Assembly: GCF_021049305.1 (NCBI RefSeq)
Contig: NZ_CP088081.1
Location: 3,162,001-3,226,000, forward strand
Source: Ideonella dechloratans
Lineage (GTDB): Bacteria; Pseudomonadota; Gammaproteobacteria; Burkholderiales; Burkholderiaceae_C
DNA: 64,000 nucleotides
Reading direction: 5' to 3'
The notes beneath the pieces were generated by a model. That model saw only the letters and a list, made by a program, of their open reading frames with translations, searched no databases and was not told the origin of the DNA. A program made the translations under genes and the position numbers. Shown piece by piece: positions 9,697-40,859 of the stretch (position 1 is the stretch's first letter; every line of letters begins with the position of its first letter).

Positions 9697-11175
9697 TCAC
9701 CAAAACGTCATCTGCGAAGGCGACGGAACAGGGGCCCGGCCCCGTCGGCGTCCCGAGGGTGGCAGGCCCGAGCGGCGCGAGCCGTGACGCGCCTGGATGG
9801 CCTGGGCCTCGGCCCGGGCAGGTGCCTGCTGACGCAGGCCGTAGAGCACGGTCTTGGCGTGGGCCAGCACCGTGGCCTCCTCCACCACCGGGGCCGGGTA
9901 GGCCGGCGTGCCCCACTCGGGCAGCCAGCGTCGCCGGTAGCGGCCCTCGGGGTCGTGCTCGGCGGCCTGCTTGGCCGGCGAGTAGATGCGCAGCGTGTTG
10001 ATGCCGGTGGTGCCCGACTGCATCTGCATCTGGCTCCAGTGGATGCCCGGCTCGAAGTCCAGGAACTGGCGGGCCAGGAACAGGCCCGGCGCGCGCCAGT
10101 GCAGCCACAGGTGGTAGGCCGCGAAGCTCACCAGCATCGCCCGCATGCGGAAGTTCAGCCAGCCGGTGGCGCGCAGCTGGCGCATGCAGGCGTCCACCAT
10201 CGGATAGCCGGTGCGGCCCTCGCACCAGGCCTCGAACAGCTCCTGGCGCCAGGGCGCCTCGCAACCGGCGTCGCCGGGCCGCAGACCGTCGTGGGCGCGG
10301 GAGAAGTTGCGCCACTCCACCGCCGGCTCGTCCTCCAGCTTCTGCATGAAGTGGCAGTGCCAGCGCAGCCGGGCGCCGAAGGACGTCAGGTCGCGGGCCA
10401 GCGCGGCATCGGGGGTGGCCTGGCGCGCCCGCTCGGTGGCCTGGAAGACGCAGCGCATCGACACCGTGCCGAAGGCCAGGTGCTCGCTCAGGCGGCTGCA
10501 GCCGGTCTCGGCGCTCAGCGGGCTGGACAGGGCGCGCCGGTAGCCGGCCGCCCGCCCCTGCAGAAAGCTGCCCAGCCCGGCCCAGGCCGCGGCCTCGCCG
10601 GCCGGCGGCAAGGTGGGCCCCGGGCCGGACAGGCCCAGATCGCCCAGGGTCGGCAACGGCTCGGGCAGCAAGTCGGGCACGCCGGCCCAGCCGGCAGAAC
10701 GGGGCAGCGGCGGCGCCTGCATGCGGCGCGCCCACTGCGCAGCCCAGCCGCTGCGGCTGCGCAGCCGCCGCACCACGCCGGTCTGCGGCCATTCCAGCCA
10801 GGCCACGCCCTGGGTCCGGCACCAGGCGGCCACCGCCTTGTCACGGGTGTAGCTCCAACCGGGCCCGGTCTCCTCGTGGCTGAGCAGGTGGCTCAGGCCA
10901 TGCATGCGGCGCAGCGCCTCCAGCACCGGCACCGCCTCGCCCACCCGCACCAGCAGCGGCAGGCCGCGTGCGGCCAGGGCCTCGCGCAGCGGCGCCAGGC
11001 AGGCCAGCAGATAGGCCACGTGGCGGGGGTGGCATTCGGGGCTGTCCAGCCAGGCCGGCTCGATCAGCACCAGTGCCAGCGCCCGCTCGAAACGGGCCGC
11101 CTCAACCAGCGGCGCATGGTCGCGCAGGCGCAGGTCGCGCTTGAACCAGACCAGGGCGGTGGCCGGCTCAGCCAT
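9697..11175 (-). CDS. Cryptochrome/photolyase family protein (deoxyribodipyrimidine photolyase-like)
   Basis: A 492-residue protein with the N-terminal alpha/beta photolyase domain (ALVWFKRDLRLRDHAPLVEA at residues 7-26) and a C-terminal FAD-binding helical domain. The FAD domain shows LSEHLAFGTVSMR, WHCHFMQKLEDEP, GRTGYPMVDACMRQL, TGWLNFRMRAMLVSF and the FAD/substrate segment HWSQMQMQSGTTGINTLRIYSP. It would repair UV-induced pyrimidine dimers using blue light. The WxMQxQ-type sequence with NTLRIY resembles the class found in light-induced bacterial clusters; its exact lesion is not certain. The start at ATG 11175 overlaps the DCC gene by 8 nt. It is the last gene of a tightly overlapping five-gene operon. 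The final 30 residues are basic and low in complexity. Confidence 0.85.
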   Translation of the reverse strand: MAEPATALVWFKRDLRLRDHAPLVEAARFERALALVLIEPAWLDSPECHPRHVAYLLACLAPLREALAARGLPLLVRVGEAVPVLEALRRMHGLSHLLSHEETGPGWSYTRDKAVAAWCRTQGVAWLEWPQTGVVRRLRSRSGWAAQWARRMQAPPLPRSAGWAGVPDLLPEPLPTLGDLGLSGPGPTLPPAGEAAAWAGLGSFLQGRAAGYRRALSSPLSAETGCSRLSEHLAFGTVSMRCVFQATERARQATPDAALARDLTSFGARLRWHCHFMQKLEDEPAVEWRNFSRAHDGLRPGDAGCEAPWRQELFEAWCEGRTGYPMVDACMRQLRATGWLNFRMRAMLVSFAAYHLWLHWRAPGLFLARQFLDFEPGIHWSQMQMQSGTTGINTLRIYSPAKQAAEHDPEGRYRRRWLPEWGTPAYPAPVVEEATVLAHAKTVLYGLRQQAPARAEAQAIQARHGSRRSGLPPSGRRRGRAPVPSPSQMTFW

Positions 11176-11635
11176 GGCGCCCCCGGTCGGGATCGCAGGC
11201 AGCGCCGCAGTCCGCCTCGGCCCCTTCGCCCAGCAGGCGGCGGGCCCGCGCCTGCAGCGCCGGGCGCCAGCGCAGGAAGCGGCGGTAGGCCCGCTCGGCC
11301 AGCCAGGGCGCGCCCGGCAGGGCCTGCACCGCCGCGGCCAGCAACCACCAGCGCGGCAAGGCCGCCCACAGCCGCAGAAAGCCCGCAGCCCCGCCATGCC
11401 AGTGCCCGACCGCATCGCGCACATGAAAGCGCGCCAGCAGCGCGGCCCGGTCCGGCGCACGGGGGTCGTCCAGCGCGGCGCAGGTCGCGGGCTCGCTCAG
11501 GTCGCGCCAGACGATGGGCTGGCGGGGCGTGAGCCGACGGTAGTGGGCGATCTCACGCCGGCACAGGGGGCAGGCGCCGTCGAAGAAGACCTCCAGCGCA
11601 GCCGCGGCCTCGGGGCGGGAGAGCGGCTGGTTCAT
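11168..11635 (-). CDS. DCC family protein (DUF393, putative thiol-disulfide oxidoreductase)
   Basis: A 155-residue small protein with the family-defining start LEVFFDGACPLCRREIAHYRRL (residues 14-35; two Cys spaced CPLC, with D-G-x-C just before). The family name comes from this DxxCxxC motif and a thioredoxin-like fold is assumed, but the role is not established. A hydrophobic stretch (WWLLAAAVQALPGAPWLAERAYRR) is also typical. It sits between two photolyase genes: its ATG overlaps the stop of the iron-sulfur photolyase gene (ATGA) and its end overlaps the start of the next photolyase by 8 nt. Such placement suggests redox support for the repair flavoproteins, which is inference. Confidence 0.85.
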   Translation of the reverse strand: MNQPLSRPEAAAALEVFFDGACPLCRREIAHYRRLTPRQPIVWRDLSEPATCAALDDPRAPDRAALLARFHVRDAVGHWHGGAAGFLRLWAALPRWWLLAAAVQALPGAPWLAERAYRRFLRWRPALQARARRLLGEGAEADCGAACDPDRGRHG

Positions 11636-13215
11636 GCCGGCACCTCCTGCGCCTCCTGTTCCCCCTGCGCGCGCAGCGCCCGGGCCTGGGCCTGCAGCGC
11701 GGTGCGCTCGGTCTCGTCCAGGCGGGCCAGGTGGCGCACCTGCATGCCCAGGCGGGGGTGGCCGGCCAGCCAGTCCTGGTGGCGCAGCAGGAAGTCCCAG
11801 TACAGCGTGGTGTAGGGGCAGGCCCGCGGGCCGCTGCGCTGGCGCGGGTCGAAGGCGCAGCCCGCGCAGGGCGCGCCCTGGCGCTGCAGGTACTGGCCGC
11901 TGGCGATGTAGGGCTTGCTGGCCATCACGCCGCCATCGGCGTGCTGGGACATGCCCAGGGTGTTGGGCAGCTCCACCCACTCCACCGCATCGACATAGAC
12001 GGCCAGGAACCAACGGTGGACTTCCTGAGGCCGCACGCCCAGCAGCTGGGCATAGAGGCCGATCACCATCAGGCGCTGGATGTGGTGGGCATAACCCCAG
12101 CGCAGGGTCTGGTGCAGCGCATCGCGCAGGCAGGCCATCGGCGTCTGGCCGGTCCAGAACCAGGCGGGCAGCGGCAGCGTGGCGTCCAGGCCGTTGAGCT
12201 CGGCGTAGCCCGGCATGCGCGTCCAGTAAATGCCGCGCACGTACTCGCGCCAGCCCAGGATCTGGCGGATGAAGCCTTCGGCGCCGGCCAGCGGCACCTG
12301 GCCGGCGCGCCAGGCGGCCTCGGCCGCGGCCACCACCTCGCGCGGGTCCAGCAGCTTGAGGTTGAGGGCCGCGGACAGCTGCGAGTGGTAGAGCCAGGGC
12401 TCGCCGACCCACAGCGCATCCTGGTAGCGGCCGAACAGCGGCAGCCGCTCACGCACGAAGGCGTCCAGCGCCTGCAGGGCCTGCGCGCGCGTGACCGGCC
12501 AGGCGAAGTCGTCCAGCGCGCCGGGATGCCCGGCCAGGCGGGTGCGCACCAGGGCCAGCACCTGCTGCGTGATCGCATCGGGCGCGAAGCGCGGCGGGGC
12601 CGGCAGCGGGCCCGGTCCCTCGGGACCGAAGGCGGCGCGGTTGTCGGCGTCGAAGTTCCAGCGCTCGCCCTCGGGCTCGCCATCGGGCCGCATCAGCACG
12701 CCAAAGCGGCGGCGCAGATGGCGGTACCAGTGCTCCAGCCGCAGGCCCTTGCGACCGCGGGCGAAGGCGGCGAATTCGCGCACCGTGGTGTAGAAGTGGC
12801 GGTCCTCGCGCAGGTCCAGCGGCAGGCCCTGGTCCCGGGCCACGGCCCGCAAGGCCTGCAGCACGCGCCAGTCGCCCGGCGCGGTCAGCACCAGGGCGGC
12901 CGGGCGCTGGCGGGCCAGCGTGGCGGCCAGGGCCGCGCCCAGGCTGGCGCCCGCGCCGGGGTGGGCCGGGTCCTCGGGTGCATCCAAGGGCCGGTAGTGC
13001 ACCGTCCAGCCACGCTCCCGCAGGGCCTGGGCGAAGTGGCGCATGGCGGCCAGGAACAGCGCGGTGCGCGGCTGGGACGACCAGACATGGGTGCTTTCCT
13101 CCATCACCTCGGCCATCCACACCGCGTCACGGGCCGGGTCGAAGCCGTCGAAGGCCGAGGACCGCAGGTCGAGCTGGTCGCCCAGCACCAGCACCAGGTG
13201 GCGCAGTTCAGCCAT
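11632..13215 (-). CDS. phrB: Iron-sulfur bacterial cryptochrome/(6-4) photolyase (PhrB/CryB type)
   Basis: A 527-residue flavoprotein of the FeS-BCP group, which repairs (6-4) photoproducts and carries FAD, a lumazine-type antenna and a [4Fe-4S] cluster. The N-terminus LVLVLGDQLDLRSSAF is the group's signature. The FAD domain has EGFIRQILGWREYVRGIYW and WGYAHHIQRLMVIGLYAQL (with the His-His pair of this class), then WVELPNTLGMSQHADGG. The C-terminal cluster ligands are visible in CAGCAFDPRQRSGPRACPY, with a further Cys expected upstream in the helical domain. Length fits the family (about 510). The start at ATG 13215 overlaps the DUF2256 gene by 8 nt. Confidence 0.93.
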   Translation of the reverse strand: MAELRHLVLVLGDQLDLRSSAFDGFDPARDAVWMAEVMEESTHVWSSQPRTALFLAAMRHFAQALRERGWTVHYRPLDAPEDPAHPGAGASLGAALAATLARQRPAALVLTAPGDWRVLQALRAVARDQGLPLDLREDRHFYTTVREFAAFARGRKGLRLEHWYRHLRRRFGVLMRPDGEPEGERWNFDADNRAAFGPEGPGPLPAPPRFAPDAITQQVLALVRTRLAGHPGALDDFAWPVTRAQALQALDAFVRERLPLFGRYQDALWVGEPWLYHSQLSAALNLKLLDPREVVAAAEAAWRAGQVPLAGAEGFIRQILGWREYVRGIYWTRMPGYAELNGLDATLPLPAWFWTGQTPMACLRDALHQTLRWGYAHHIQRLMVIGLYAQLLGVRPQEVHRWFLAVYVDAVEWVELPNTLGMSQHADGGVMASKPYIASGQYLQRQGAPCAGCAFDPRQRSGPRACPYTTLYWDFLLRHQDWLAGHPRLGMQVRHLARLDETERTALQAQARALRAQGEQEAQEVPA

Positions 13216-13393
13216 CGCCCCCTCCCCGGCGCCCGGCCTGGCGGCGGCAGGCCGCGGAGCAGTGGCGCACCTCGTCCCAGCAGCGGGCCCAGCGCTTGCG
13301 CCAGCCCATGGGCCGGCCGCAGTGCTGACAGGGCTTGACCGGCAGGGCCGCCTTCAGGCCCTTGACCGCGCCGGCCACCTTGGGGGCCTTCAT
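13208..13393 (-). CDS. DUF2256 small zinc-finger-like protein
   Basis: A 61-residue basic protein with CQHCGRPMGWRKRWARCWD followed by VRHCSAACRR. The two Cys pairs (CxxC and CxxxC) and the invariant W-RKRWAR-W-DEVR core identify DUF2256, probably a small zinc-binding module. Its role is unknown, but members are nearly always next to photolyase/cryptochrome genes, as here. It overlaps the flavoprotein gene upstream (ATGA) and the iron-sulfur photolyase downstream by 8 nt, so all three are translationally coupled. Confidence 0.88.
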   Translation of the reverse strand: MKAPKVAGAVKGLKAALPVKPCQHCGRPMGWRKRWARCWDEVRHCSAACRRQAGRRGGGDG

Positions 13394-14430
13394 GCCAGCA
13401 CCTCCACCACGCTGGTCTGCAGGGCACCGGCCAGGTCGCGCGCGGAACTCCAGGCCCGCTCCACCGGCTCCACCCCGGCGGGCAGCTGCGCGCCCCCCAG
13501 GAAGTCGCCGCAGACGCCCAGGGCCAGCTCGCCATCCCACCAGTGGGAGGCACCGGCCGGCGGCAGGGCGGGCACGGCGTAGCGCCAGCGGTGCGCCACC
13601 GCGCTGCGCCAGAGCACCGGCTCGCCCAGCCATTCGGCCAAGGCGGCCTGCAGTGCGGGCAGCACCACCTCGGGGGGCTCCTCCAGATGCAGCTGGCTCC
13701 AGGTCGGCGTGGCCTGCAGGACCCAGTGCGCCTCGCCCACGCGCTGTTCGCGGCCGGGCCGGGCATCCTGCCGCAGCACGCGGGCCAGCGGCCCGGTGGG
13801 CGGGCAGGCCAGGGCGCCGCCGGGCACTTCGGCCGCCAGTTCGGAGCTCACGCCCATCACCGTCCAGCAGGGCAGCATGGGCACCGCGGCGGCAGCGCCC
13901 GCCCAGTCCGGCCGCCAGGGCGCAAGCAGGGGCGCGGCCTGGGCCGGCGGCAGCGCCAGCACCACCGCGTCCAGCCCCTCGGCCACCCGCTGCCCCCCGG
14001 ATTCCAGCCACCAGCCGTGCAGGCCGCGGCCCAGGGTGTCGACGGGGCAGGACCACCGCGCGTTCAGGCCGTCCAGCAGGCCGCGGCACCAGTCGGGCAT
14101 GCCGGCCTGGCCCAGCCAGCGCGGCGTCACCTCGGCCAGCGGCGAGCTCGGCCGCGGTTGCCAGCGGCGGCACCAGCCTTCGGCCTGGGCCCGCAACAGC
14201 GCCCGCTGGAAGGCCGGCCCACGGGCCCCGAAATCGGCCGCCCCGTGGTCCAGCCAGGTCACCCGCTCCTGGCCGTCGGGGGTGGTCCAGACCATGCGCC
14301 GGGTGGCCAGGCGTCCGCCGGGTCCCCGGGCCTTGTCGAACACCTGCACCTGCCAACCGGCGTCGGCCAGCCAGCGCGCACAACTGGCACCGGCCAGACC
14401 GGCCCCCACCACGGCGGCACGGGGGTTCAT
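13390..14430 (-). CDS. Renalase-like FAD-dependent oxidoreductase
   Basis: A 346-residue flavoprotein. The N-terminus AAVVGAGLAGASCARWLADAG (GxGxxG) with the acidic strand end VQVFDKARGPGGRLATRR is the dinucleotide-binding Rossmann fold of renalase/amine-oxidase-like NAD(P)/FAD proteins. WLDHGAADFGARGPAF and the C-terminal LALGVCGDFLGGAQ (FAD pyrophosphate region) fit the same group. Reaction unknown; renalases oxidise misreduced NAD(P)H isomers, so a role in clearing photo- or oxidatively damaged cofactors is possible. The start at ATG 14430 is chosen because the Rossmann strand begins right after it; an ATG at 14454 is possible. First gene of the photolyase arm, divergent from the MerR gene. 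Confidence 0.8.
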   Translation of the reverse strand: MNPRAAVVGAGLAGASCARWLADAGWQVQVFDKARGPGGRLATRRMVWTTPDGQERVTWLDHGAADFGARGPAFQRALLRAQAEGWCRRWQPRPSSPLAEVTPRWLGQAGMPDWCRGLLDGLNARWSCPVDTLGRGLHGWWLESGGQRVAEGLDAVVLALPPAQAAPLLAPWRPDWAGAAAAVPMLPCWTVMGVSSELAAEVPGGALACPPTGPLARVLRQDARPGREQRVGEAHWVLQATPTWSQLHLEEPPEVVLPALQAALAEWLGEPVLWRSAVAHRWRYAVPALPPAGASHWWDGELALGVCGDFLGGAQLPAGVEPVERAWSSARDLAGALQTSVVEVLA

Positions 14431-14538
14431 GGGGCTCAGTTCAGGGCATTTCATGGCGAGCAGCTTAGTCAGCTTGGCGCCTGAGTGCATCGTCTTTGAC
14501 GCATACTGTCGCTCCATCGGCTGCTTTTGCGAGTCAAT

Positions 14539-15558
14539 ATGGATTCATCCGAACCCGATCCCAGCCGCCGCCCGCAGTACCGCAGCGGGGCCGTGGCACG
14601 CATGGTGCGCATGCCGGTGACCACCCTGCGGGTGTGGGAGAGGCGCTACCGGCTCACCCAGGCCGCGCTCAGCCCCAGCGGCCAGCGGCTCTACAGCGCG
14701 GCCGATGTGCAGCGCCTGGCGCTCATCAAGCAGCTGACCGACCTGGGGCACGCCATCGGGCAACTGGCCGGGCTGGACATGGCCGCGCTGCTGGCGGTGC
14801 AGGCCACCCACGCCCAGGCGGTGGCCGGCAGCCCGGCCGCCCTGCCCCCGGCACCGGCCCCTGCCAGCCCGGCGCCCTGGCGGGTCGGGGTGGTGGGGGA
14901 GGCCTTGTTCCGGCGCCTGGCGCGCGACGCCGACCTGCCGGATAGCGGCCAGCCACGGCTGCTGGGGCCCTGGGCCGACCCGGCCGAGGCCGAGGCCGCC
15001 TGCGCGGCCCTGCGGGCACGGGGCGAAGCACCGGGGCTGCTGCTGTGGCACTGCCCCAGCCTGCAACCCGAGGCCTGGGCCCGGTGGCAGGCCGAGGCCC
15101 CCACGCTGAGCAGCCAGGCCCGGCTGGGCGTGGTCTACAGCTTTGCCAGCGCGGCCGGGCGGGCCCCGCTGCTGGCCGCCGGTGCCAGCCTGCTGCACGA
15201 GCCTGCCGAGGACGTGGCGCTGTGGCGCTGGCTGGGCACGCTGGGACCCACGGCGCCACCGCCTCTGCCCGGCCCGGCCGCCCTGCCCCCGGCGCCGCCG
15301 CGACGTTGGGACGATGCCGCGCTGGTGGCGCTGGCCGGCCTGTCGACCACCATGGCCTGCGAATGCCCGCGCCACATCGCCGGCCTGCTGCGCCAGCTGA
15401 TGCACTTCGAGGCCTACAGCCGCGAATGCGCCCACCGCAGCCCCGACGATGCCGCCCTGCACGCCCACCTGGCCGAGGTGAGCACCCGCTGCCGGCTGGC
15501 CTTCGAGGAGGCCCTGGCCCGCGTCATCGCCCACGAGGGGCTGCTGCCCGGGGGCTGA
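14539..15558 (+). CDS. MerR-family regulator with C-terminal CxCxxxH domain
   Basis: A 339-residue regulator. Residues 14-60 form the MerR winged helix (YRSGAVARMVRMPVTTLRVW then ERRYRLT, SGQRLYSAADVQRLALI). The middle (about 95-230) is the flavodoxin-like region that binds cobalamin in CarH/LitR light sensors, but I see no DxHxxG or similar His motif, so B12 binding looks lost. The C-terminus (273-339) has ACECPRHIAGLLRQLMHFEA and a further Cys (about 297) and His. This domain is shared by MerR proteins beside photolyase/cfa clusters and could hold a metal or react with oxidants. It is divergent from the photolyase operon and 18 bp upstream of the FabG4-type gene. Most likely it controls the island. 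ATG 14539 is chosen; a TTG at 14527 is possible. Confidence 0.85.
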   Translation: MDSSEPDPSRRPQYRSGAVARMVRMPVTTLRVWERRYRLTQAALSPSGQRLYSAADVQRLALIKQLTDLGHAIGQLAGLDMAALLAVQATHAQAVAGSPAALPPAPAPASPAPWRVGVVGEALFRRLARDADLPDSGQPRLLGPWADPAEAEAACAALRARGEAPGLLLWHCPSLQPEAWARWQAEAPTLSSQARLGVVYSFASAAGRAPLLAAGASLLHEPAEDVALWRWLGTLGPTAPPPLPGPAALPPAPPRRWDDAALVALAGLSTTMACECPRHIAGLLRQLMHFEAYSRECAHRSPDDAALHAHLAEVSTRCRLAFEEALARVIAHEGLLPGG

Positions 15559-15576
15559 GCCGCCACAATCGGCGCC

Positions 15577-16965
15577 ATGTCGCCCGCCGCCCCCCACGCC
15601 CGTTCCACCCCCACGCCCACGGGCGACCGCCTGATCGCCCTGGCCGCCGGCCGCTGGACCGGCCCGCTGATCCGTGCCCTGGGCCTGCCCAGCCCGAAGG
15701 CCCTGCCCCGCGAGACCGGCCCGCTGCAGGCCGTGGCCCTGGCGGGACGGAGAGGCGCGCTGGGCGGCACCGGCATGACGCCCACCTTGCAGGCGGCCGA
15801 GGCTGCGCTGCGGGCGCTGGGTGTGCAGGGGCTGCAGGAGCAAGGACAGGCGGGGCCGACCGACGGCCCGCTGGACCTGGCGGTCTTCGACGCCACCGGC
15901 CTGGTGACAGTGGCCGCGCTGGACGGGCTGCGCCGCTTCTTCGCCCCCGGCCTGGGCCGGCTGCGGCCGGGCGCTCGCCTGCTGCTGCTGGCCCGCGCGC
16001 CCGACACGCTGACCGCACCCGAGGCCGCCGCCGCGGCCCAGGCATGCGAGGGTTTCATGCGCAGCCTGGCCAAGGAGGTGGGCCGGCGCGGCGCCACCGC
16101 CAACCTGCTGTGGCTGGAGCCCGGGTCCGAGGCCGGCCTGGCGGCGCCGCTGGCCTTCTTCGGCGGCCCGCGCAGCGCCTATGTCTCGGGCCGCACGCTG
16201 CGGCTGACGGCAGCGCCCATCCCCGCCGGCCACGGTCTGGGCGGGCGCACCGCGGTGGTGACCGGCGCGGCCCGCGGCCTGGGCGCCGCCACCGCCGAGC
16301 GCCTGGCTGCCGAAGGCGCGCGCGTGCTGTGCGTGGACGTGCCGGCGGCCGGCGAGCCGCTGGAAGCGCTGGCCCGGCGCCTGGCCGGCCAGGCCCTGGC
16401 GCTGGACATCACCGCGGCCGATGCCGGCGCCCGCCTGGTGGCGGCGCTGCAGGCCGCGGGCGGGGCGGACGTGGTGGTGCACAACGCCGGCATCACCCGC
16501 GACCGCACGCTGGCCCGCATGAGCGAGGCCGAGTGGAACGCGGTGCTGGCCGTCAACCTGCGCGCGGTGCTGGGCCTGGACGCGGCACTGGACGCCGCCG
16601 GCCTGTGGCGGCCGGGCGCGCGGGAGGTCTGCCTGTCCTCCATCAGCGGCATCGCCGGCAACGGCGGCCAGACCAATTACGCGGCCAGCAAGGCGGCGTT
16701 GCTGGGCTATGTGGCGGCCCGGGCCCGCCAGGCGCCTGCCGCGGGCATGACGGTCAATGCGGTGGCGCCGGGCTTCATCGAGACGGAGATGACGGCGCGC
16801 ATCCCTTGGATGATCCGCGAGGCCGGCCGGCGCATGAATGCCCTGGCACAGGGCGGCCAGCCGCAGGACGTGGCCGAGGCCATCGCCTTCCTGGCCCAGC
16901 CGGGCGCGGCGGGCGTCAACGGCCAGGTGCTGCGGGTCTGCGGCCAGGCGCTGCTGGGGGCCTGA
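15577..16965 (+). CDS. Long-form 3-oxoacyl-ACP/CoA reductase (FabG4-like SDR)
   Basis: A 462-residue protein with two domains. The C-terminal half (about 220-460) is a complete classical SDR: TAVVTGAARGLGAATAERLA (TGxxxGxG, NAD(P) binding), VVHNAGITRDRTLARM, the catalytic Ser in CLSSISGIAGNGGQ, YAASK (Tyr and Lys), and VNAVAPGFIETEMTA. The N-terminal half (about 40-215) is a degenerate Rossmann/flavodoxin-like domain. This architecture is the high-molecular-weight FabG (FabG4) type, which reduces 3-oxoacyl-CoA/ACP. It starts 18 bp after the MerR gene and is probably cotranscribed with it, suggesting light or oxidative-stress control of an acyl-chain step. It ends 34 bp before the convergent pirin gene. 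Confidence 0.85.
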   Translation: MSPAAPHARSTPTPTGDRLIALAAGRWTGPLIRALGLPSPKALPRETGPLQAVALAGRRGALGGTGMTPTLQAAEAALRALGVQGLQEQGQAGPTDGPLDLAVFDATGLVTVAALDGLRRFFAPGLGRLRPGARLLLLARAPDTLTAPEAAAAAQACEGFMRSLAKEVGRRGATANLLWLEPGSEAGLAAPLAFFGGPRSAYVSGRTLRLTAAPIPAGHGLGGRTAVVTGAARGLGAATAERLAAEGARVLCVDVPAAGEPLEALARRLAGQALALDITAADAGARLVAALQAAGGADVVVHNAGITRDRTLARMSEAEWNAVLAVNLRAVLGLDAALDAAGLWRPGAREVCLSSISGIAGNGGQTNYAASKAALLGYVAARARQAPAAGMTVNAVAPGFIETEMTARIPWMIREAGRRMNALAQGGQPQDVAEAIAFLAQPGAAGVNGQVLRVCGQALLGA

Positions 16966-16999
16966 GCCGCCCCGCTTCGACCCTTCAGGTCTTCACGCC

Positions 17000-17893: not shown

Positions 17894-17915
17894 GGCGGTC
17901 CTTTCGGCGTTCAGG

Positions 17916-18551: not shown

Positions 18552-18623
18552 GGGCCGGATTCTAGACCCGGCGAGCCATCTTCAATACCCGATAGTGCAA
18601 AGTGGATACCAAACGGTTATATT

Positions 18624-18662
18624 TTGAACTCATCAGTTCAATCATTGATCTGACAAGTTCAA
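18624..18662. promoter_or_regulatory. Tandem operator-like palindromes between tetR and the FAD oxidoreductase operon
   Basis: Site 1 (18624-18641) is TTGAACT-CATC-AGTTCAA, a perfect 7-bp inverted repeat. Site 2 (18645-18662), TTGATCTGACAAGTTCAA, is an imperfect copy sharing most positions, offset by 21 bp (two helical turns). An AT-rich TATATT lies at about 18619-18624 as a possible -10 for the plus-strand operon, so bound repressor would cover the start point. Site 2 ends just before the ribosome site GGGAGG (18664-18669). Confidence 0.75.
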
Positions 18663-18678
18663 CCGGGAGGTCTTCCAC

Positions 18679-20013
18679 ATGCACCGAGTCGCTGTCATCG
18701 GTTCCGGCATCGCCGGCCTGGGCGCCGCCTGGCGACTGAGCCGAGCGCAGGCCGGCCAGCCGCCGCTGCAGGTCACCCTGTTCGAGGCCGGCCGCCACTT
18801 CGGCGGCCACGCCCACACGGTGGACCTGGCGCTCGACGGTGTCCACCAGGGCGTGGACACCGGCTTCCTGGTCTACAACCAGCGCACCTACCCGCTGCTG
18901 ACCCGGCTCTTCGCCGAGCTGGGGGTGGAGGTGGCGGCCTCGGACATGTCCTTCTCGGTGCAGGTGCCGCGGCCCGACGGCCGGCCCGGCCTGGAATGGA
19001 GCGGCAGCTCGCTGGCCAGCGTCTTCGCCCAGCGCAGCAACCTGCTGCGTCCGCGCTTCTGGCACATGCTGGCCGAGATCCTGCGCTTCAACCGCCTGGC
19101 CACCGACCTGGCCCGGCGCCAGGCCGAGGCGGAGCTGGACACCTCGATCGGTGCCTTCCTCGACCTTCACGGCTTCGGCCCGGCCTTCCGCGAGGACTAC
19201 CTGCTGCCGATGATCGGCTGCATCTGGTCCTGCCCCACCGACCAGATGCTGCGCTTCCCGGTGGCCACGCTGATCCGCTTCTGCCACAACCATGGCCTGA
19301 TCCAGGTCACCGACCGGCCGCAGTGGTACACGGTGCGCGGCGGCTCGCGCCAGTACGTGCGCCGGCTGGTGGCCCAGCTGCCCGACGCCCGGCTGAACAC
19401 GCCGGTGCTGGGCCTCAAGCGCCTGGACCAGGGCGTGGTGCTGCAAACCGCGCATGGCAGCGAGCACTTCGACGCGGTGGTGCTGGCCTGCCACAGCGAC
19501 CAGGCCCTGGCCCTGCTGGGCGAGGACGCCAGCGCCGACGAGCGCGCGGTGCTGGGCGCCATCCGCTACCAGCCCAACGAGGCCGTGCTGCACACCGACA
19601 CCGGCGTGCTGCCCACCCGCCCCGCCGCCTGGGCGGCCTGGAACTACGAGCGCGCCGCCAGCACGCAGCAGGAACAGACCCAGGTCTGCCTGCACTACCT
19701 GATCAACCGCCTGCAGCCCCTGCCCTGGGAACGCCCGGTCATCGTCTCGCTCAACCCGGCCCGGCCGATCGACGAGCGCCAGGTGCACCAGCGCATCGCC
19801 TACAGCCACCCGGTGTTCGACCTGGCCGCCATCGAGGCCCAGCGCCGCGTGCCCGGGCTGCAGGGGCGGCGCCACACCTGGTTCTGCGGCGCCTGGTGCG
19901 GCTACGGCTTCCACGAGGACGGCCTGCGCGCCGGCACCGAGGCCGCCGAGGATCTGCGCCGTGCGCTGGCCGGCCGGCCCGACACGGCCGACAGCGCCCG
20001 GGGGGCCGCATGA
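18679..20013 (+). CDS. NAD(P)/FAD-dependent oxidoreductase (amine-oxidase-like, photo-oxidative stress cluster)
   Basis: A 444-residue flavoprotein. It opens with VAVIGSGIAGLGAAWRLSRA (GxGxxG) and FEAGRHFGGHAHTVD, the FAD-binding start of the amine oxidase/phytoene-desaturase superfamily, followed by GVDTGFLVYNQRTYP. Typical later segments are FREDYLLPMIGCIWS, WYTVRGGSRQYVRRL, and the FAD-closing WFCGAWCGYGFHEDGLRAG. Orthologues lie in singlet-oxygen regulons of other proteobacteria, where such enzymes are linked to fatty-acid desaturation or furan fatty-acid formation; that role is inferred here. ATG 18679 follows GGGAGG. First gene of the eight-gene operon; it overlaps the DUF1365 gene (ATGA). 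Confidence 0.9.
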   Translation: MHRVAVIGSGIAGLGAAWRLSRAQAGQPPLQVTLFEAGRHFGGHAHTVDLALDGVHQGVDTGFLVYNQRTYPLLTRLFAELGVEVAASDMSFSVQVPRPDGRPGLEWSGSSLASVFAQRSNLLRPRFWHMLAEILRFNRLATDLARRQAEAELDTSIGAFLDLHGFGPAFREDYLLPMIGCIWSCPTDQMLRFPVATLIRFCHNHGLIQVTDRPQWYTVRGGSRQYVRRLVAQLPDARLNTPVLGLKRLDQGVVLQTAHGSEHFDAVVLACHSDQALALLGEDASADERAVLGAIRYQPNEAVLHTDTGVLPTRPAAWAAWNYERAASTQQEQTQVCLHYLINRLQPLPWERPVIVSLNPARPIDERQVHQRIAYSHPVFDLAAIEAQRRVPGLQGRRHTWFCGAWCGYGFHEDGLRAGTEAAEDLRRALAGRPDTADSARGAA

Positions 20014-20804
20014 ACGCCACCCCCCGTGCCACCGCCGCCGCGCAGCCGCTGATCGGCTTCGGCAGCGTCTGGCACCGCCGCTTGCGGCCGGTGGAACATG
20101 CCTTCCGCTACCCCAGCTACTTCCTGCTGCTGCCGCTGCGCAGCCTGCGCGGCGCGCCGCAGGCCGCGCTGCGCCGCAACCGCTGGGGCTGGCTGAGCTT
20201 CCATGACCGCGACCACGGCGAGGGCGGCCCCGACGCGCTGGCCTGGTTCGAGGACCTGCTGGCGCGCGAGGGCATCACCGACGCCGACGGCGAGGTCTGG
20301 CTGCACACCTTCCCCCGGGTGCTGGGCTATGTCTTCAAGCCGGTGAGCTTCTGGTACGCGCACCGGGCCGACGGCTCGCTGGCCGCCGTGCTGGCCGAAG
20401 TCAACAACACCTTCGGCGAGCGCCACGCCTACCTGCTGGCCGGGCCGGACCTGGCCTGGGGCCGCGAACAGCACGCCCGCAAGGTCTTCCACGTCTCGCC
20501 CTTCTGCCGGGTCGAGGGGGCCTACCGCTTCCGCTTCGAGCGCCACGCGGGCGATGCGCAGCAGCCGCCCCACACCCTGGTGCGGGTGGACCTGGACGAT
20601 GCCCAGGGCCCGCTGCTGCAGACCAGCGTGGGCGGCCGGCTCGAGGCCCTGAGCCCGGCCAGCGTGCGCCGGGCCTGCTTCGGCACCCCGCTGATGACCC
20701 TGGGCGTGATCGCCCGCATCCACTGGCAGGCGCTGCAGCTCTGGCGCAAGCGCGTGCCCTTCTTCGGCAAACCCGCCGCCCCCGAGCACTTCGTCACCCG
20801 ATGA
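20010..20804 (+). CDS. DUF1365 family protein
   Basis: A 264-residue protein of DUF1365. The motifs GSVWHRRLRPVEHAFRYPSY at the N-terminus (residues 20-39), LHTFPRVLGYVFKPVSFWYA in the middle, AEVNNTFGERHAYLL, and KVFHVSPFCRVEGAYRFRF are the conserved family blocks. Biochemical activity is not established; the family is almost always encoded beside an FAD oxidoreductase and a cyclopropane-synthase-like methyltransferase, as here, and is thought to act with them on membrane acyl chains. It overlaps both neighbours by ATGA junctions, so three proteins are made in a coupled way. Confidence 0.92.
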   Translation: MNATPRATAAAQPLIGFGSVWHRRLRPVEHAFRYPSYFLLLPLRSLRGAPQAALRRNRWGWLSFHDRDHGEGGPDALAWFEDLLAREGITDADGEVWLHTFPRVLGYVFKPVSFWYAHRADGSLAAVLAEVNNTFGERHAYLLAGPDLAWGREQHARKVFHVSPFCRVEGAYRFRFERHAGDAQQPPHTLVRVDLDDAQGPLLQTSVGGRLEALSPASVRRACFGTPLMTLGVIARIHWQALQLWRKRVPFFGKPAAPEHFVTR

Positions 20805-22060
20805 ACACGACCACCGCGACCTCCCCCCGCTCCGCGGCCGTGCCCGGCGCCGCACCCGCCGCCGCCCGCCGCGTGCTCAACTTGCTGGCCCGCCTGCCCC
20901 AGGGCCGGCTGGACCTGCAGCTGCCCGATGGCCAGGTGCAGCGCCTGTCCGGCGCCACCGGCAGCGGCCAGCCCGTCGGCAGCATGGTGCTGCACAACTG
21001 GGCCGTCTTCGAGCGCACCTTGAAGGCCGGCGACATCGGCCTGGCCGAGAGCTACATCGACGGCGACTGGGACAGCTCCGACCTGGCCGCCCTGCTGCGC
21101 CTGTGCATCCGCAACCGCGAGCACATCGAGGGCCTCATCTACGGCCGCTGGTGGGGCGCCCTGGCCTACCGGCTGCGCCACCTGCTGCGGCGCAACAGCC
21201 GCAGCGGCAGCGCCAAGAACATCCATGCCCACTACGACCTGGGCAACAGCTTCTACCGCCTGTGGCTGGACCCGACCATGAGCTACAGCGCGGCCTGGTT
21301 CGAGGGCCGCGACCCGCGCGGCGTGGACCTCCAGGCCGCCCAGCAGGCCAAGGTGCGCCGCGCCCTGCGCGAAGCCCGGGTGACGCCCGGCGCCCGGGTG
21401 CTGGAGATCGGCTGCGGCTGGGGCGGGCTGGCGGAGATCGCGGCCGGCGAGTTCGGCGCCCATGTCACCGGCGTGACCCTCTCGCGCGAGCAGCTGCAAT
21501 GGGGCCAGGCGCGCATGCAGGCCCTGGGCCTGGGCCGGCAGGTGGACCTGCGCTACCAGGACTACCGCGACCTGGCCGAGCGGCACGCGGACGCGCCCTT
21601 CGATGCCATCGTCTCCATCGAGATGTTCGAGGCGGTGGGCCGCGAGTACTGGCGCGGCTACTTCGAGACCCTGCGCGCCTGCCTCAAGCCCGGTGGTCAC
21701 GCCTGCATCCAGACCATCACCATCCGCGACGACCTGTTCGAGCGCTATGTGCGCTCGACCGACTTCATCCAGCAGTACATCTTCCCCGGCGGCCTGCTGC
21801 CCAGCCCCTCGGCCTTCGAGGCCGAGGCCCGCCGTGCCGGCTTCATCGTCGAGCAGCGCCTGGCCTTCGGGCCCGACTACGCCGAAACCCTGCGCCGCTG
21901 GCGCGAGGCCTTCCTGCGCGAGATCGACACGGTGCAGCGCCTGGGCTTCGACGCCCGCTTCCAGCGCATCTGGGCCTTCTACCTGGCCTATTGCGAGGCG
22001 GCCTTCGACACCGGCAACACCGACGTCATCCAGTTCACGCTGCGCAAGCCCCTGTCATGA
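20801..22060 (+). CDS. Cyclopropane-fatty-acyl-phospholipid synthase family methyltransferase
   Basis: A 419-residue SAM-dependent methyltransferase of the CfaA/CMAS family. The N-terminal helical domain contains VLHNWAVFERTLKAGDIGLA and ESYIDGDWD. The catalytic domain starts at NIHAHYDLGNSFYRLWLD, then YSAAWFEG, the SAM motif VLEIGCGWGGLAEIAA, and IVSIEMFEAVGREYWRGYF. These are the active-site blocks of enzymes that methylate double bonds in phospholipid acyl chains. In singlet-oxygen clusters such paralogues make methylated or furan fatty acids rather than plain cyclopropanes, so the product here is open. A second, more canonical Cfa is at 41499-42680. It overlaps both neighbours (ATGA). 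Confidence 0.9.
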   Translation: MNTTTATSPRSAAVPGAAPAAARRVLNLLARLPQGRLDLQLPDGQVQRLSGATGSGQPVGSMVLHNWAVFERTLKAGDIGLAESYIDGDWDSSDLAALLRLCIRNREHIEGLIYGRWWGALAYRLRHLLRRNSRSGSAKNIHAHYDLGNSFYRLWLDPTMSYSAAWFEGRDPRGVDLQAAQQAKVRRALREARVTPGARVLEIGCGWGGLAEIAAGEFGAHVTGVTLSREQLQWGQARMQALGLGRQVDLRYQDYRDLAERHADAPFDAIVSIEMFEAVGREYWRGYFETLRACLKPGGHACIQTITIRDDLFERYVRSTDFIQQYIFPGGLLPSPSAFEAEARRAGFIVEQRLAFGPDYAETLRRWREAFLREIDTVQRLGFDARFQRIWAFYLAYCEAAFDTGNTDVIQFTLRKPLS

Positions 22061-22683
22061 CATCCGCCATGCAACCCGCCCCGTCCCCGCACTGCACCCG
22101 GCGCCGGAGCCTGGCCTGCATGGCCCGGATGGCCGGCATGCTGGCCACCCTGCCCGTCACCTTGAACACCCCCATGACCGCCCTCGCCCAGACCGCTGCC
22201 CCCACCCCGACGCCCCCGGCCGAACTCCGGCCCCTGCTGCCCACGGCCCGCCTGCTGGGCAGTGGCGTGCTGCGCTTCTTCGGCCTGCGCGTGTACGAGG
22301 CACGGCTGTGGGCCGCCCCCGGCTTCCAGCCCGAGCGCTACGCCCAGCAGCCCTTTGGCCTGGAACTGGCCTACGACCGCAAGCTCGAGGGCGAAGCCAT
22401 CGCCGAACGCTCCATCGCCGAGATGCGCCGCGTGGGCCCCTTCAGCGAGAGCCAGGCCAACCAGTGGCTGGCCCTGATGAAGCAGGCCTTCCCGGACGTG
22501 GCCGCGCAGGACCGGCTGCTGGGCCTGAACGACGGCCAGGGCGACGTGCGCTTCTTCCACAACGGCCAGCCCACCGCGCAGACCCGGGACGCCGAATACG
22601 CCCGGCTGTTCTTCGGCATCTGGCTGGCGCCGCAGACCTCGGCCCCCGCGCTGCGCGACGCCCTGCTGGGCCTGGCACGCTGA
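22057..22683 (+). CDS. Chalcone-isomerase-like exported protein
   Basis: A 208-residue protein with a hydrophobic N-terminal segment after Arg residues (RRRSLACMARMAGMLATLPV, residues 16-35) that fits a signal peptide. The mature part shows LLGSGVLRFFGLRVYEARLW, FGLELAYDRKLEGEAIAERS and EYARLFFGIWLAPQTSAPAL, the pattern of the bacterial chalcone-isomerase-like family (CHI-fold, fatty-acid-binding relatives). Catalysis is not known; binding of oxidised fatty acids is plausible in this operon. ATG 22057 overlaps the methyltransferase stop. It ends 22 bp before the MFS carrier gene. Confidence 0.82.
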   Translation: MTSAMQPAPSPHCTRRRSLACMARMAGMLATLPVTLNTPMTALAQTAAPTPTPPAELRPLLPTARLLGSGVLRFFGLRVYEARLWAAPGFQPERYAQQPFGLELAYDRKLEGEAIAERSIAEMRRVGPFSESQANQWLALMKQAFPDVAAQDRLLGLNDGQGDVRFFHNGQPTAQTRDAEYARLFFGIWLAPQTSAPALRDALLGLAR

Positions 22684-22705
22684 ACCTCGTCCAACCAGCC
22701 CCAAC

Positions 22706-24028
22706 ATGCCCACGCCACACGCCCCCGCCGCCGCCCTGCCCTGGCGCACCGGGCTGGCCTATGGCGCGCTGGCCCTGCCGCTGGCCTTCGTCTCGCTGCC
22801 GCTCTACGTGACGCTGCCGCACCACTACGCCACCGAGGCCGGCGCCCCGCTGGCCGCCCTGGGCATGGTGCTGCTGGCCACCCGCGGCCTGGACGCCGTG
22901 GTGGACCCGGCCCTGGGGCGCTGGGCCGACCACCTGTTCCGGCGCGGCCTGCGCCCGGCCTGGCAGGCCGCGGCCGGGGGCGCGCTGGCCCTGGCGCTGG
23001 CCTTTGCCGCGCTGTGGCACCCGCCACGCGGGCCGGCCGCCGCCACCCTGGCCTGGCTGGGCCTGACCCTGCTGGCCTGCACCCTGGCCTACAGCGGCGT
23101 GGCCATCCTGCACCAGGCCTGGGGCACCCGCTGGGGCGGCGCGCCGGCCTGGCGGGCCCAGGTCAGCGCCTGGCGCGAGGGCGCCACCCTGCTGGGCGTG
23201 GTGCTGGCCAGCGCCCTGCCCGCCTGGCTGGGGCTGGACGGGACCAGCGCCGTGCTGGCCGTGGCCCTGGGTGCCGGCCTGCTCGGCCTGGGCTGGCTGC
23301 TGCGCCGCCCTGGCGTGGCCACCCTGCCGACCGCCGCCGCGGATGCGTCAGCCGAAACCCCGTCGCCCCCTGCGCGCACGACCGCCACCTCGCCCTGGCG
23401 CGACGCCGCCTTCCGCCGCCTGCTGGCGGTCTTCATGCTCAACGGCGTGGCCAGCGCCATCCCGGCCACGCTGCTGCCCTTCTTCGTGGCCGACCGGCTG
23501 CAGGCCGCCGGCCTGCAGCCCCTGCTGCTGCTGACCTACTTCGGCGCCGCCGCGCTGGGCCTGCCGCTGTGGGTGCGGGCGGTGCGGCGCTGGGGCCTGT
23601 CGCCCACCTGGCGCGCCGGCATGGCCGCCAGCGTGGCGGCCTTCGCCTGCACCCCGGCCCTGGGCGCGGGCGACGGCCCGGCCTTTGCCGCCATCTGCCT
23701 GGCCAGCGGCCTGGCCCTGGGGGCCGACCTGGCCCTGCCCGGCGCCCTGCTGACCGGCGTGATCCACCAGGCCGGCGCGGGCCAGCAGGGCGAGGGCCGC
23801 TACCTGGGCTGGTGGGCCTGCGCCACCAAGCTCAACCTGGCCCTGGCCGCCGGCCTGGCCCTGCCGCTGCTGGCCGCCGCCGGCTACCAACCCGGTCAGG
23901 CGGCTCCCGCGGGGCTGCAGGCCCTGGCCTGGGCCTACGGCGGCCTGCCCCTGCTGCTCAAGCTGGCGGCCCTGGCCGCGCTGTGGCGCGCCGAGCAGCG
24001 CCACCCCACCTGGAGAGACACCGCATGA
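22706..24028 (+). CDS. MFS transporter, GPH (glycoside-pentoside-hexuronide) type
   Basis: A 440-residue inner-membrane carrier with about twelve hydrophobic segments. The loop [21 protein letters not shown] with its Asp residues is the MFS_2/GPH hallmark, between helices 2 and 3. Other members of this type transport sugars with a cation, but homologues in photo-oxidative clusters have no known substrate; movement of a lipid or lipid fragment is a guess. It overlaps the DUF3833 gene by ATGA (24025). The central loop (about residues 205-230) is a Pro/Thr/Ala-rich linker. Confidence 0.87.
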
Positions 24029-24639
24029 TCCGCCTCCTCCCCTTCGCCATTCCCCCCAGCGCCCGGCGTGTGCTGCTGACCCTGGCGGCCACCGGCGCCC
24101 TGGCCGGCCTGGCCGCTTGCGCCGGCCCCAGCGTGCAGGATTACGCCCAGGAAAAGCCGGTGCTGGACCTGCGCGACTACCTCAACGGCCCGCTGACCGC
24201 CCAGGGCCTGTTCACCGACCGCTCCGGCCGCGTCGTCAAGCGCTTCACGGTGCAGATGACCGGCCAGTGGCAGGGTGACGAGGGCACGCTGGACGAGCAT
24301 TTCCGCTACAGCGACGGCACGACCCAGCGCCGCGTCTGGCACCTGCGCCACCTCGGCGACGGGCGTTATGTGGGCCGGGCCGACGACGTGGTGGGCGAAG
24401 CCCGCGGCGAGAGCGCCGGCAACGCCTTCCACTGGACCTACACCCTGGCCCTGCCGGTGGACGGCCGGGTCTGGAACGTCGAGTTCGACGACTGGATGTA
24501 CCGCATGGACGAAACCACCGTGCTCAACCGCTCGGCCATGAGCAAGTTCGGCATCCACCTGGGCGACGTGACCCTGGCCTTCACCAAGCCGGCGCAGGCC
24601 GTGAGCCACTCCAGCGGCACCATCGACCACAAGGACTGA
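24025..24639 (+). CDS. DUF3833 family lipoprotein
   Basis: A 204-residue protein with an N-terminal signal ending in a lipobox-like LAGLAACAG (Cys about 32), so it is probably anchored in a membrane facing the periplasm. The family blocks are LDLRDYLNGPLTAQGLFTDR, RVVKRFTVQMTGQWQGDEGT, LDEHFRYSDGTTQRRVW and WNVEFDDWMYRMDETTVLNR, which define DUF3833. Function unknown; the fold is probably a lipocalin-like barrel, and members sit consistently in this gene cluster. It overlaps the carrier gene by 4 nt and is followed after 4 bp by the SDR. Confidence 0.9.
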   Translation: MIRLLPFAIPPSARRVLLTLAATGALAGLAACAGPSVQDYAQEKPVLDLRDYLNGPLTAQGLFTDRSGRVVKRFTVQMTGQWQGDEGTLDEHFRYSDGTTQRRVWHLRHLGDGRYVGRADDVVGEARGESAGNAFHWTYTLALPVDGRVWNVEFDDWMYRMDETTVLNRSAMSKFGIHLGDVTLAFTKPAQAVSHSSGTIDHKD

Positions 24640-24643
24640 CACC

Positions 24644-25435
24644 ATGGGCTGGCTGGGACGGGACCTGAACCCCCGCATCACCGACTGGGCCGGACGCTGG
24701 GTCTGGCTGGTGGGCGCCTCCTCGGGCATCGGCCGGGCGCTGGCCGAGGCCCTGCACCGGCGCGGCGCGCGGGTCATCGTCTCGGCCCGGCAGGCCGCCG
24801 CGCTGCAGGACTTCGCCCGGGCCCACCCGGGCAGCCTGGCCCTGCCGCTGGACGTGACCGATGCCCAGGCCGTGCGGCAGGCCGCCGCCCGGGTGGCCGA
24901 GGCCGCCGGCGGCGCCCCGGCCCTGGTGCTGTTCTGCGCCGGCCATTACCGGGCCCAGAGCGCGACCGCCTTCGACCTGGCGGAGATGCAGCGTCATCTG
25001 GCCGTGAACTACCAGGGCGCCCTGCATCTGCTCGACGCGGTGCTGCCGCTGCTGCTGGCCGCCGGCCGCGGCCACCTCAGCCTGGTGGGCAGCGTGGCCG
25101 GCTACCGCGGGCTGCCGCTGTCGCTGGCCTACGGGCCGACCAAGGCGGCGCTGAACAACCTGGCCGAGAGCCTGTACCTGGACCTGCACCCGCGCGGCCT
25201 GGGCGTGTCCATCGTCAACCCGGGCTTCGTCGAAACCCCGCTGACCGCGCAGAACGCCTTTCGGATGCCGGCGCTGATCACGCCCGAACAGGCCGCCCAG
25301 GCCATGTTGCAGGGCTGGGCCCAGGGCCGCTTCGAGATGAACTTCCCGCGCCGCTTCACCCGCTGGGTGCGGCTGCTGCGCGGCCTGCCCGACGCCTGGT
25401 ACTTCGCCCTGGTGCGCCGGGCCACCGGTGCCTGA
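24644..25435 (+). CDS. Short-chain dehydrogenase/reductase
   Basis: A 263-residue classical SDR. VWLVGASSGIGRALAEALHR is the NAD(P) motif, LFCAGHYRAQSA covers the NAG position (changed to CAG), the catalytic Ser is in LSLVGSVAGYRGLPLSLA with Tyr and Lys in YGPTKAA, and the PG motif is SIVNPGFVETPLTA. The C-terminal part (PRRFTRWVRLLRGLPDAWYF) is typical for SDRs of the DUF3833/NTF2 cluster. The substrate is unknown; an oxidised fatty-acid or aldehyde intermediate would suit the operon. It begins 4 bp after the DUF3833 gene and ends 4 bp before the NTF2-like gene. Confidence 0.9.
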   Translation: MGWLGRDLNPRITDWAGRWVWLVGASSGIGRALAEALHRRGARVIVSARQAAALQDFARAHPGSLALPLDVTDAQAVRQAAARVAEAAGGAPALVLFCAGHYRAQSATAFDLAEMQRHLAVNYQGALHLLDAVLPLLLAAGRGHLSLVGSVAGYRGLPLSLAYGPTKAALNNLAESLYLDLHPRGLGVSIVNPGFVETPLTAQNAFRMPALITPEQAAQAMLQGWAQGRFEMNFPRRFTRWVRLLRGLPDAWYFALVRRATGA

Positions 25436-25439
25436 ACCC

Positions 25440-25886
25440 ATGCCGCCCCGCCCCATCAACGACCCCCGCACCGCGCGCCTGGTGGCCGCCTACGAGGCCC
25501 TGCGGCCCGATACCGTGCCGCAACTGCTGGCGCTCTACGACGACGAGGCCCTGTTCAAGGACCCCTTCAACGAGGTGCGCGGTCAGGCCGCGATCGGCCG
25601 CATCTTCACCCACATGTTCCAGGCCCTGGACGCCCCGCGCTTCGACGTGCGGGTGGCGGTGACGGAGGGCGACGACGCCTTCCTGACCTGGGATTTCCAT
25701 TTCGCCCGCCGCGGCCAGTCGGAGCGCTGGACCATCCGCGGTGCCAGCCACCTGCTCTACACCCCGGCGGGGCAGGTCTCGGTGCACCGCGACTACTGGG
25801 ACGCGGCCGAGGAGCTGTACGCCAAGCTGCCTCTGCTGGGCGTGCTGATGCGGGCGCTGCAGCGGCGGCTGGGCACGCCGGCCTGA
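25440..25886 (+). CDS. NTF2-like (SnoaL) protein
   Basis: A 148-residue protein with the cone-shaped NTF2-like fold signatures: LVAAYEALRPDTVPQLLALY, ALFKDPFNEVRGQAAIGRIF, DAFLTWDFHFARR and VSVHRDYWDAAEELYAKLPL. Members of this subfamily follow the SDR in photo-oxidative clusters. It may be a small isomerase or binding protein; no reaction is known. ATG 25440 gives the usual length; a GTG at 25428 inside the SDR end is less likely. Last gene of the operon. No hairpin with a T-run follows in the 59 bp before the aminotransferase gene, so read-through is possible. Confidence 0.88.
   Translation: MPPRPINDPRTARLVAAYEALRPDTVPQLLALYDDEALFKDPFNEVRGQAAIGRIFTHMFQALDAPRFDVRVAVTEGDDAFLTWDFHFARRGQSERWTIRGASHLLYTPAGQVSVHRDYWDAAEELYAKLPLLGVLMRALQRRLGTPA

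Positions 25887-39017: not shown

Positions 39018-40859
<1,842 letters not shown>

Follow-up and report, generated by a model that had tools for sequence, protein, structure and literature searches.

The present analysis concerns a segment of a 64,000-nucleotide stretch of the Ideonella dechloratans genome; the whole stretch is referred to here as the window and corresponds to C1:3162001-3226000 of a two-contig, 4.54-Mb genome. Two gene arms, together with a MerR-family and a TetR-family regulator, lie in this segment (Table 1). The minus-strand arm contains, in the 5' to 3' direction, the genes of a renalase-like FAD protein, a DUF2256 protein, an iron-sulfur (FeS) photolyase, a DCC protein and another photolyase, which overlap by 4, 8, 4 and 8 nt, and the plus-strand arm is an operon with intergenic gaps of only -4 to +22 nt. 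The first-pass annotation, which had treated the segment as one photo-oxidative stress island, gave this gene content for both the arms, with overlaps of 4-8 nt in the photolyase arm and a single lipid operon, and all of these genes have been confirmed by domain at their positions. The 462-aa short-chain dehydrogenase/reductase (SDR) downstream of MerR and the pirin gene beside TetR were omitted from it. The enzymes of both arms are of known kinds, and the regulators are the less ordinary part of the locus. No tRNA gene is present in the window, and an Rfam scan of the whole window gave no match at gathering level. The G+C content is 70-77% at window positions 10000-38000, compared with 66-69% on the left side and 67-73% on the right side.

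Table 1. Features of the locus with their coordinates in the window, and an example of the RNA element found in relatives (PWM, position weight matrix score)
Feature	Position	Strand	Remark
Divergent DNA photolyase/cryptochrome-family protein, 492 aa	9697..11175	-	PF03441 171 bits, PF00875 73 bits
DCC1-like thiol-disulfide oxidoreductase	11168..11635	-	PF04134 79 bits; 8- and 4-nt overlaps with neighbours
Iron-sulfur bacterial photolyase, PhrB/CryB type	11632..13215	-	PF04244 238 bits; 3zxs 480, 4dja 458 bits
DUF2256 small protein	13208..13393	-	PF10013 65 bits
Renalase-like FAD protein	13390..14454	-	PF13450/PF01593; alternative start 14430
Predicted operator before photolyase arm, GCGTCA-N5-GATGCA	14485..14503	-	PWM 17.5
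Predicted operator, MerR promoter, GAGTCA-N5-GATTCA, overlaps MerR start codon	14530..14548	+	PWM 27.0
MerR-family regulator, LitR/CarH relative without B12 motifs, C-terminal C-x-C-P-x-H...C domain	14539..15558	+	
SDR, 462 aa, extra N-terminal region	15577..16965	+	PF13561 158 bits; starts 18 nt past MerR
Pirin	17000..17893	-	PF02678/PF05726
TetR-family regulator, divergent from furan operon	17916..18551	-	PF00440 54 bits
Predicted TetR operator TGAACT-N4-AGTTCA, between TetR and ufaD	18625..18640	.	Perfect palindrome, sole copy in window
UfaD-like FAD oxidase/desaturase	18679..20013	+	PF01593 62 bits; place and order as RPA2571
UfaO-like DUF1365 protein	20010..20804	+	PF07103 266 bits
UfaM-like Cfa-family methyltransferase	20801..22060	+	PF02353 285 bits; cyclopropane synthase 6bqc 180 bits
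Chalcone-isomerase-like protein (Chalcone_3)	22057..22683	+	PF16036 26.3 bits, just below cut-off 27
GPH/MFS_2 carrier	22706..24028	+	PF13347 145 bits
DUF3833 protein	24025..24639	+	PF12915 237 bits
SDR	24644..25435	+	PF00106 123 bits
SnoaL/NTF2-like protein	25440..25886	+	PF12680 55 bits; alternative GTG start 25428
RNA element example	L181:7226-7339	+	Plus 33 further loci

The closest solved structures to the 492-aa photolyase are photolyases (1owl, 126 bits), and it is a more distant relative of the class I enzymes. The FeS photolyase aligns nearly full-length with CryB, PhrB being also among its matches; it possesses the DPRP domain, and four cysteines (MACL, CAGC and CPY), which presumably act as the Fe-S cluster ligands, align with those of CryB. 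The MerR often adjoins the FeS photolyase in Burkholderiales: in 80 named MerR loci, the region up to 6 kb from MerR contains the FeS photolyase in 47/80, DUF2256 in 46/80 and DCC in 32/80.

The MerR regulator and its predicted operator

The window MerR is a relative of LitR and CarH, by its fold and by the layout of its operator, and because it is itself such a relative the photolyase arm is probably under a known kind of control. Its best sequence match in the PDB is CarH (5c8d, E 2.2e-8), confined to the helix-turn-helix (HTH), and 8 of the 11 Foldseek matches of its predicted model at E<=0.001 are Thermus thermophilus CarH. The absence of a B12 motif reported in the first-pass annotation holds good, as neither W-x9-EH nor [DE]xHxxG is found. 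These are the motifs of B12-binding CarH and class I LitR, and by motif the window MerR lies outside the class I LitR/CarH (adenosylcobalamin) type. It gives no Pfam match to PF02607 (B12-binding_2) at E<=0.01 and hence lies outside class II LitR as well. In comparison to T. thermophilus CarH (5c8d/5c8e/5c8f), the HTH, the Rossmann-like domain and the tandem 11-bp direct-repeat operator are common to both, whereas the window MerR has neither W-x9-EH nor [DE]xHxxG and possesses, after the Rossmann-like domain, a helical domain which carries C-x-C-P-x-H...C. This Cys/His set is conserved in 77 of 78 MerR loci, a count which is biased upward as the loci were fetched with patterns including S[ST]T[IVM]ACECP. 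A metal or Fe-S site at this set was a guess and was set aside, the model being poor there (pLDDT <50 at 273-275) and the VIA rows of the single-domain alignment mostly spanning residues 112-242.

The genome contains one MerR of the window kind at E<=0.001. Its sole PF02607 match sits in one 950-aa frame, which is too long for LitR (MetH would be a guess), and because this is the only such match, the PF02607 search has revealed no LitR of the B12 type or of class II in the window genome. A short BLUF protein is encoded elsewhere in the same genome (C1:3436039-3436314, L015), directly after a GTP-cyclohydrolase-I-like frame that was named by eye, and this pairing recalls the folE link of LitR regulons.

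The two top-scoring PWM sites of the whole 64-kb window share one promoter region (27.0 and 17.5). In 100 shuffled windows no site was found at 27, and 0.01 sites per window at 17.5. Ideonella sp. B508-1 has both predicted sites, with scores of 20.1 and 19.9, the minus-strand site with identical half-sites giving the latter. The strict pattern GMKTCA-N5-GMKTCA, with its hexamers 11 bp apart, occurs on the MerR strand in 37/78 upstream regions (42 pairs) and on the opposite strand in none, and dinucleotide shuffles of the MerR upstream regions gave a mean of 0.03 loci with the motif; 78 of the 80 MerR loci were counted, L045 and L084 being excluded as their contigs start inside the gene, and the shuffle mean used all 80. 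A TATAAT-like box often immediately precedes the tandem repeat. The operator of CarH proteins is described as tandem 11-bp repeats, nnnnTnnACAn (PMC9304148); in comparison to the window-type operator the 11-bp spacing is equal whereas the letters differ. The window is predicted to hold one full and one weaker CarH-like tandem 11-bp site. A regulator of LitR type without B12 thereby gains a predicted operator of defined sequence. A Pseudomonas-type site, T[GA]TACA-N10-14-TGTA[CT]A, was also tried and was found in 0/78 MerR upstream regions and 0/40 ufa/RNA loci.

Among known systems, the class II LitR (PmlR-PplR) clusters of Pseudomonas resemble the window in the closeness of photolyase, SDR, FAD oxidoreductase, UfaM and MerR genes (PMC9758184). 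They differ from it in that the window MerR is devoid of PF02607, its operator is GMKTCA-N5-GMKTCA and not TGTACA-N12-TGTACA, and the furan operon lies beside TetR. Of the 25 PAS-like matches of the window genome, the 8 loci fetched showed no LOV motif. The class III LitR of Burkholderia multivorans is also a Burkholderiales LitR relative and is said to need a non-B12 chromophore (PMC6739363, PMC9758184), the likeness being by description only. In Vibrio cholerae VCA0056-0058, a MerR adjoins a photolyase gene, with a response to blue light; V. cholerae differs in additionally using ChrR (PMC5241685).

The nearest named relative of the window MerR in the scan is that of B508-1 (88% identity), the 7-kb contig of which keeps the neighbours, namely the FeS photolyase (94%), pirin (98%), TetR (99%) and UfaD (97%). 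The 462-aa SDR is also retained there (87%), and in the other named loci the SDR matches downstream of MerR reach at most 29-33% (L032, L057, L070).

The probable furan-lipid operon and its relation to the photolyase arm

The plus-strand operon probably makes methylated furan fatty acids, as judged from its predicted proteins, since the Cfa-like methyltransferase, FAD oxidase-like and DUF1365 genes that mark a ufa operon occur together in it. In Rhodobacter sphaeroides, UfaM, UfaD (FAD, RSP1091) and UfaO (DUF1365, RSP1090) are described as producing a monomethyl furan fatty acid, and RPA2571-2569 of Rhodopseudomonas palustris as sufficient for its production there (PMC7380195). The three domain types of RSP2144/1091/1090 and RPA2569-2571 are common to the window, the D-O-M order being that of R. 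palustris (PMC7380195). The window operon differs in having a divergent TetR and five further genes, whereas ChrR governs the genes of R. sphaeroides; the comparison was made by domain and order. The DNA photorepair with acyl-chain modification that had been proposed for the locus is supported, and because the ufaD-ufaO-ufaM domain order equals that of RPA2571-2569, furan is the likelier of the two lipid options given with it. An operon yielding only methyl-branched or cyclopropane fatty acid, or some other lipid without furan, is considered unlikely. The methyltransferase also matches cyclopropane synthases (NCBIfam scores below cut-offs) and the five later genes of the operon are of unknown function, but the UfaD- and UfaO-type genes lie directly 5' with 4-nt overlaps, in the order of the proven R. 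palustris set.

The first-pass annotation had recorded no ECF sigma/ChrR at the locus, which fits the genes seen there. A singlet-oxygen regulon of the RpoE-ChrR type, with its sigma/anti-sigma pair elsewhere in the genome, appears highly improbable. In R. sphaeroides the furan acid 9M5-FuFA builds up to higher levels in a chrR mutant (PMC7380195), and the window genome contains one PF12973 cupin protein over cut-off, at C2:59884. However, the genome search for ChrR, which was a check named beforehand, gave three weak TIGR02451 matches with none over the cut-off (ECF genes were not searched as a family), and no sigma gene was seen by eye in the 3.3-kb cupin locus, where LysR-like, beta-lactamase-fold-like and FAD-oxidase-like frames were seen.

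The palindrome TGAACT-N4-AGTTCA is present in 11/30 TetR loci including the window, and in 5/7 loci where ufaD adjoins TetR. Among 150 family genomes, TetR matches at E<=1e-20 occur in 83, many of them probably paralogues, and UfaO matches at E<=1e-15 in 111. Twenty family ufa loci were taken from the top of the UfaO search list and are not a random sample. In these, TetR directly adjoins ufaD in divergent orientation in L169, L170, L171, L174 and L180, TetR lies ~1.5 kb away in L175, and with a slightly looser pattern the palindrome is found up to 200 bp from ufaD in 3 of the 6 TetR-bearing loci. The TetR relatives of L115, L116 and L118-L138, at 55-62% identity, have no ufaD within 1.5 kb, and the palindrome occurs upstream in 6/23 of them.

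The idea of one island under one different control is not supported, and neither is the inference of a single regulon, as the two arms have separate predicted operators and are largely unlinked in relatives. In such a regulon the MerR would control both arms, as LitR controls phrB and ufaM in pseudomonads, and this we regard as distinctly unlikely. In Pseudomonas mendocina, light is reported to induce two genes of the pmlR1 (class II LitR) cluster, phrB and ufaM, ~25-33 fold (PMC9758184), and in relatives a CarH-type MerR occurs near the ufa operon, with the FeS photolyase in 3 such loci. On the other hand, no MerR-type repeat is near ufaD among the window sites listed, and the best score of such a site up to 200 nt before ufaD in the 20 relatives is <=2.4. 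Moreover, ufaD, ufaO or TetR (at least 50% identity) are beside the window-type MerR in 0/60 loci with 6 kb downstream, being present in L016, and the genome, with PF02607 in the 950-aa frame alone, gave no B12-type or class II LitR. The furan operon lies beside MerR on one shorter Ideonella contig, and the arms were seen adjacent only there and in the window genome. No window-type MerR was found in the 20 sampled ufa loci, the MerR matches there being of 36-42% identity and in 8 loci. Because MerR loci occur without ufa genes and ufa loci without the window-type MerR, the adjacency of the arms looks like the result of a local event and not an old unit.

It is therefore likely, in our assessment, that two independent stress modules lie side by side, a photorepair module under a B12-free LitR/CarH-type MerR and a furan operon under TetR. 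Module 1 (9697-15558, perhaps to 16965) would comprise a photorepair operon and, divergent from it, the gene of its regulator. The MerR, independent of B12, may occupy the tandem 11-bp repeats both at its own start and in the photolyase promoter, releasing the DNA once its C-terminal domain is altered by light or oxidant. Module 2 (17916-25886) would be a furan-fatty-acid operon, the later genes of which are possibly accessory. UfaM would methylate an unsaturated phospholipid acyl chain, UfaD would desaturate it and UfaO would insert oxygen, thereby closing the furan, while the divergent TetR would repress the operon at TGAACT-N4-AGTTCA until a ligand induces it. The sequences themselves show the gene content and order, the linkage in relatives and the conservation of the predicted operators, whereas the response to light, the products and the pairing of each regulator with its site are inferred. 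This arrangement separates two responses that are often treated as one. It also suggests that the furan operon has switched regulators within the family, with a B12-type CarH as neighbour in many members and TetR here; in Rhodobacter this place is taken by ChrR.

Several observations weigh against the arrangement of two modules as described. TM-scores on the query are low for the CarH matches by fold (0.20-0.26), the domain packing of the MerR model is uncertain (pTM 0.49), and receiver domains score equal to CarH when aligned as single domains. Both window operators are atypical: the plus-strand site overlaps the start codon, and the minus-strand site, having the half-site GATGCA, scores under every training site (lowest 20.2), a score of 17.5 being reached on the minus strand in just 2/78 relatives. 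The strict motif is missing in 41/78 MerR upstream regions, and genome-wide the strict pattern occurs 13 times and its reversed control 3 times, with non-MerR sites scoring 6.2-22.9, so that no further target of the MerR is claimed. For the second module, the likeness to the characterised UfaD/O/M proteins is one of domain and order, and the strict palindrome fails in 19/30 TetR loci, including L111 and L117 where ufaD adjoins.

A predicted RNA element upstream of ufaD in relatives

A conserved element is located 5' of ufaD in 14 of the 20 sampled ufa loci, which are all those without TetR, and is not there in the 6 with TetR. It was first seen as a polypyrimidine run in 13/20 ufa loci. Upstream of it, a glutathione-peroxidase-like (GPx) gene is found in 11 of the 14 loci; L188 has only a CarH-type MerR there, and L176 and L178 lack both. 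The predicted fold is a three-way junction with P1 of 11 bp, P2, and P3 of 10 bp with a C/U-rich loop of ~30 nt. In 9 sequences, 17 of 26 pairs change on both sides, with 0/500 shuffles as high; in 34 model-aligned matches it is 24/26 pairs, in an alignment that leans to the structure. The counts of G-U versus A-C are 20 to 2, which favours the C-rich strand as the RNA. A terminator-like hairpin with a T-run follows the element in 22/34, the copy of the own genome being without it.

With strict filters, the covariance model found the element in 284/399 family genomes, as a single copy in each except G299, and in 399 genomes drawn from the order it gave 11 matches, all from the same family as the window genome. 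The own genome carries its copy outside the window, beside a ferritin-like gene (C1:3489630-3489734, 59 bits). A model match within the window (40715-40772, minus strand, 12.9 bits, E 0.059) was rejected as chance-like. The neighbours up to 4.5 kb from 34 RNA loci include ferritin-like genes in 27, GPx in 16, ufaDOM in 15 and CarH in 12; these loci are not a fair sample, 14 having been chosen for ufa and 20 hand-picked from the covariance-model list. CarH-type MerRs lie near the RNA in L172, L173, L182-L186, L223 and L227, and 7/9 are accompanied by GPx and the furan operon. Nine MerRs encoded at ufa or RNA loci in relatives were checked, and 9/9 carry both W-x9-EH and [DE]xHxxG. No MerR-type operator was found up to 200 nt before the RNA, the best score being 6. 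Rfam gave 0 matches at gathering level in 7 ufa loci and, at E<=1 in one RNA locus, two unrelated sub-threshold matches only. No paper describing the RNA was found by title or abstract, which is not proof of novelty.

As a tentative and still doubtful extension, the family may run its peroxide and furan-lipid defence through a so far undescribed small RNA of ~110 nt, present as a single copy, the polypyrimidine loop of which could pair with Shine-Dalgarno sequences; in many members its gene would lie between GPx and ufaD, with a B12-type CarH close by. In the Ideonella line the furan operon would then have moved away from this locus to TetR control, and a LitR relative without B12 would hold the photolyases, sensing light or oxidant at a conserved Cys-x-Cys-x2-His...Cys site. 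If expressed, the RNA beside the furan operon in relatives would add a riboregulator to the defence against light and peroxide. What stands out as unusual is the subtype of the regulator and its operator, a change across the family in how the furan operon is controlled, and the RNA seen in relatives. The loop of this RNA presumably resembles that of the alphaproteobacterial stress RNAs with the CCUCCUCCC motif.

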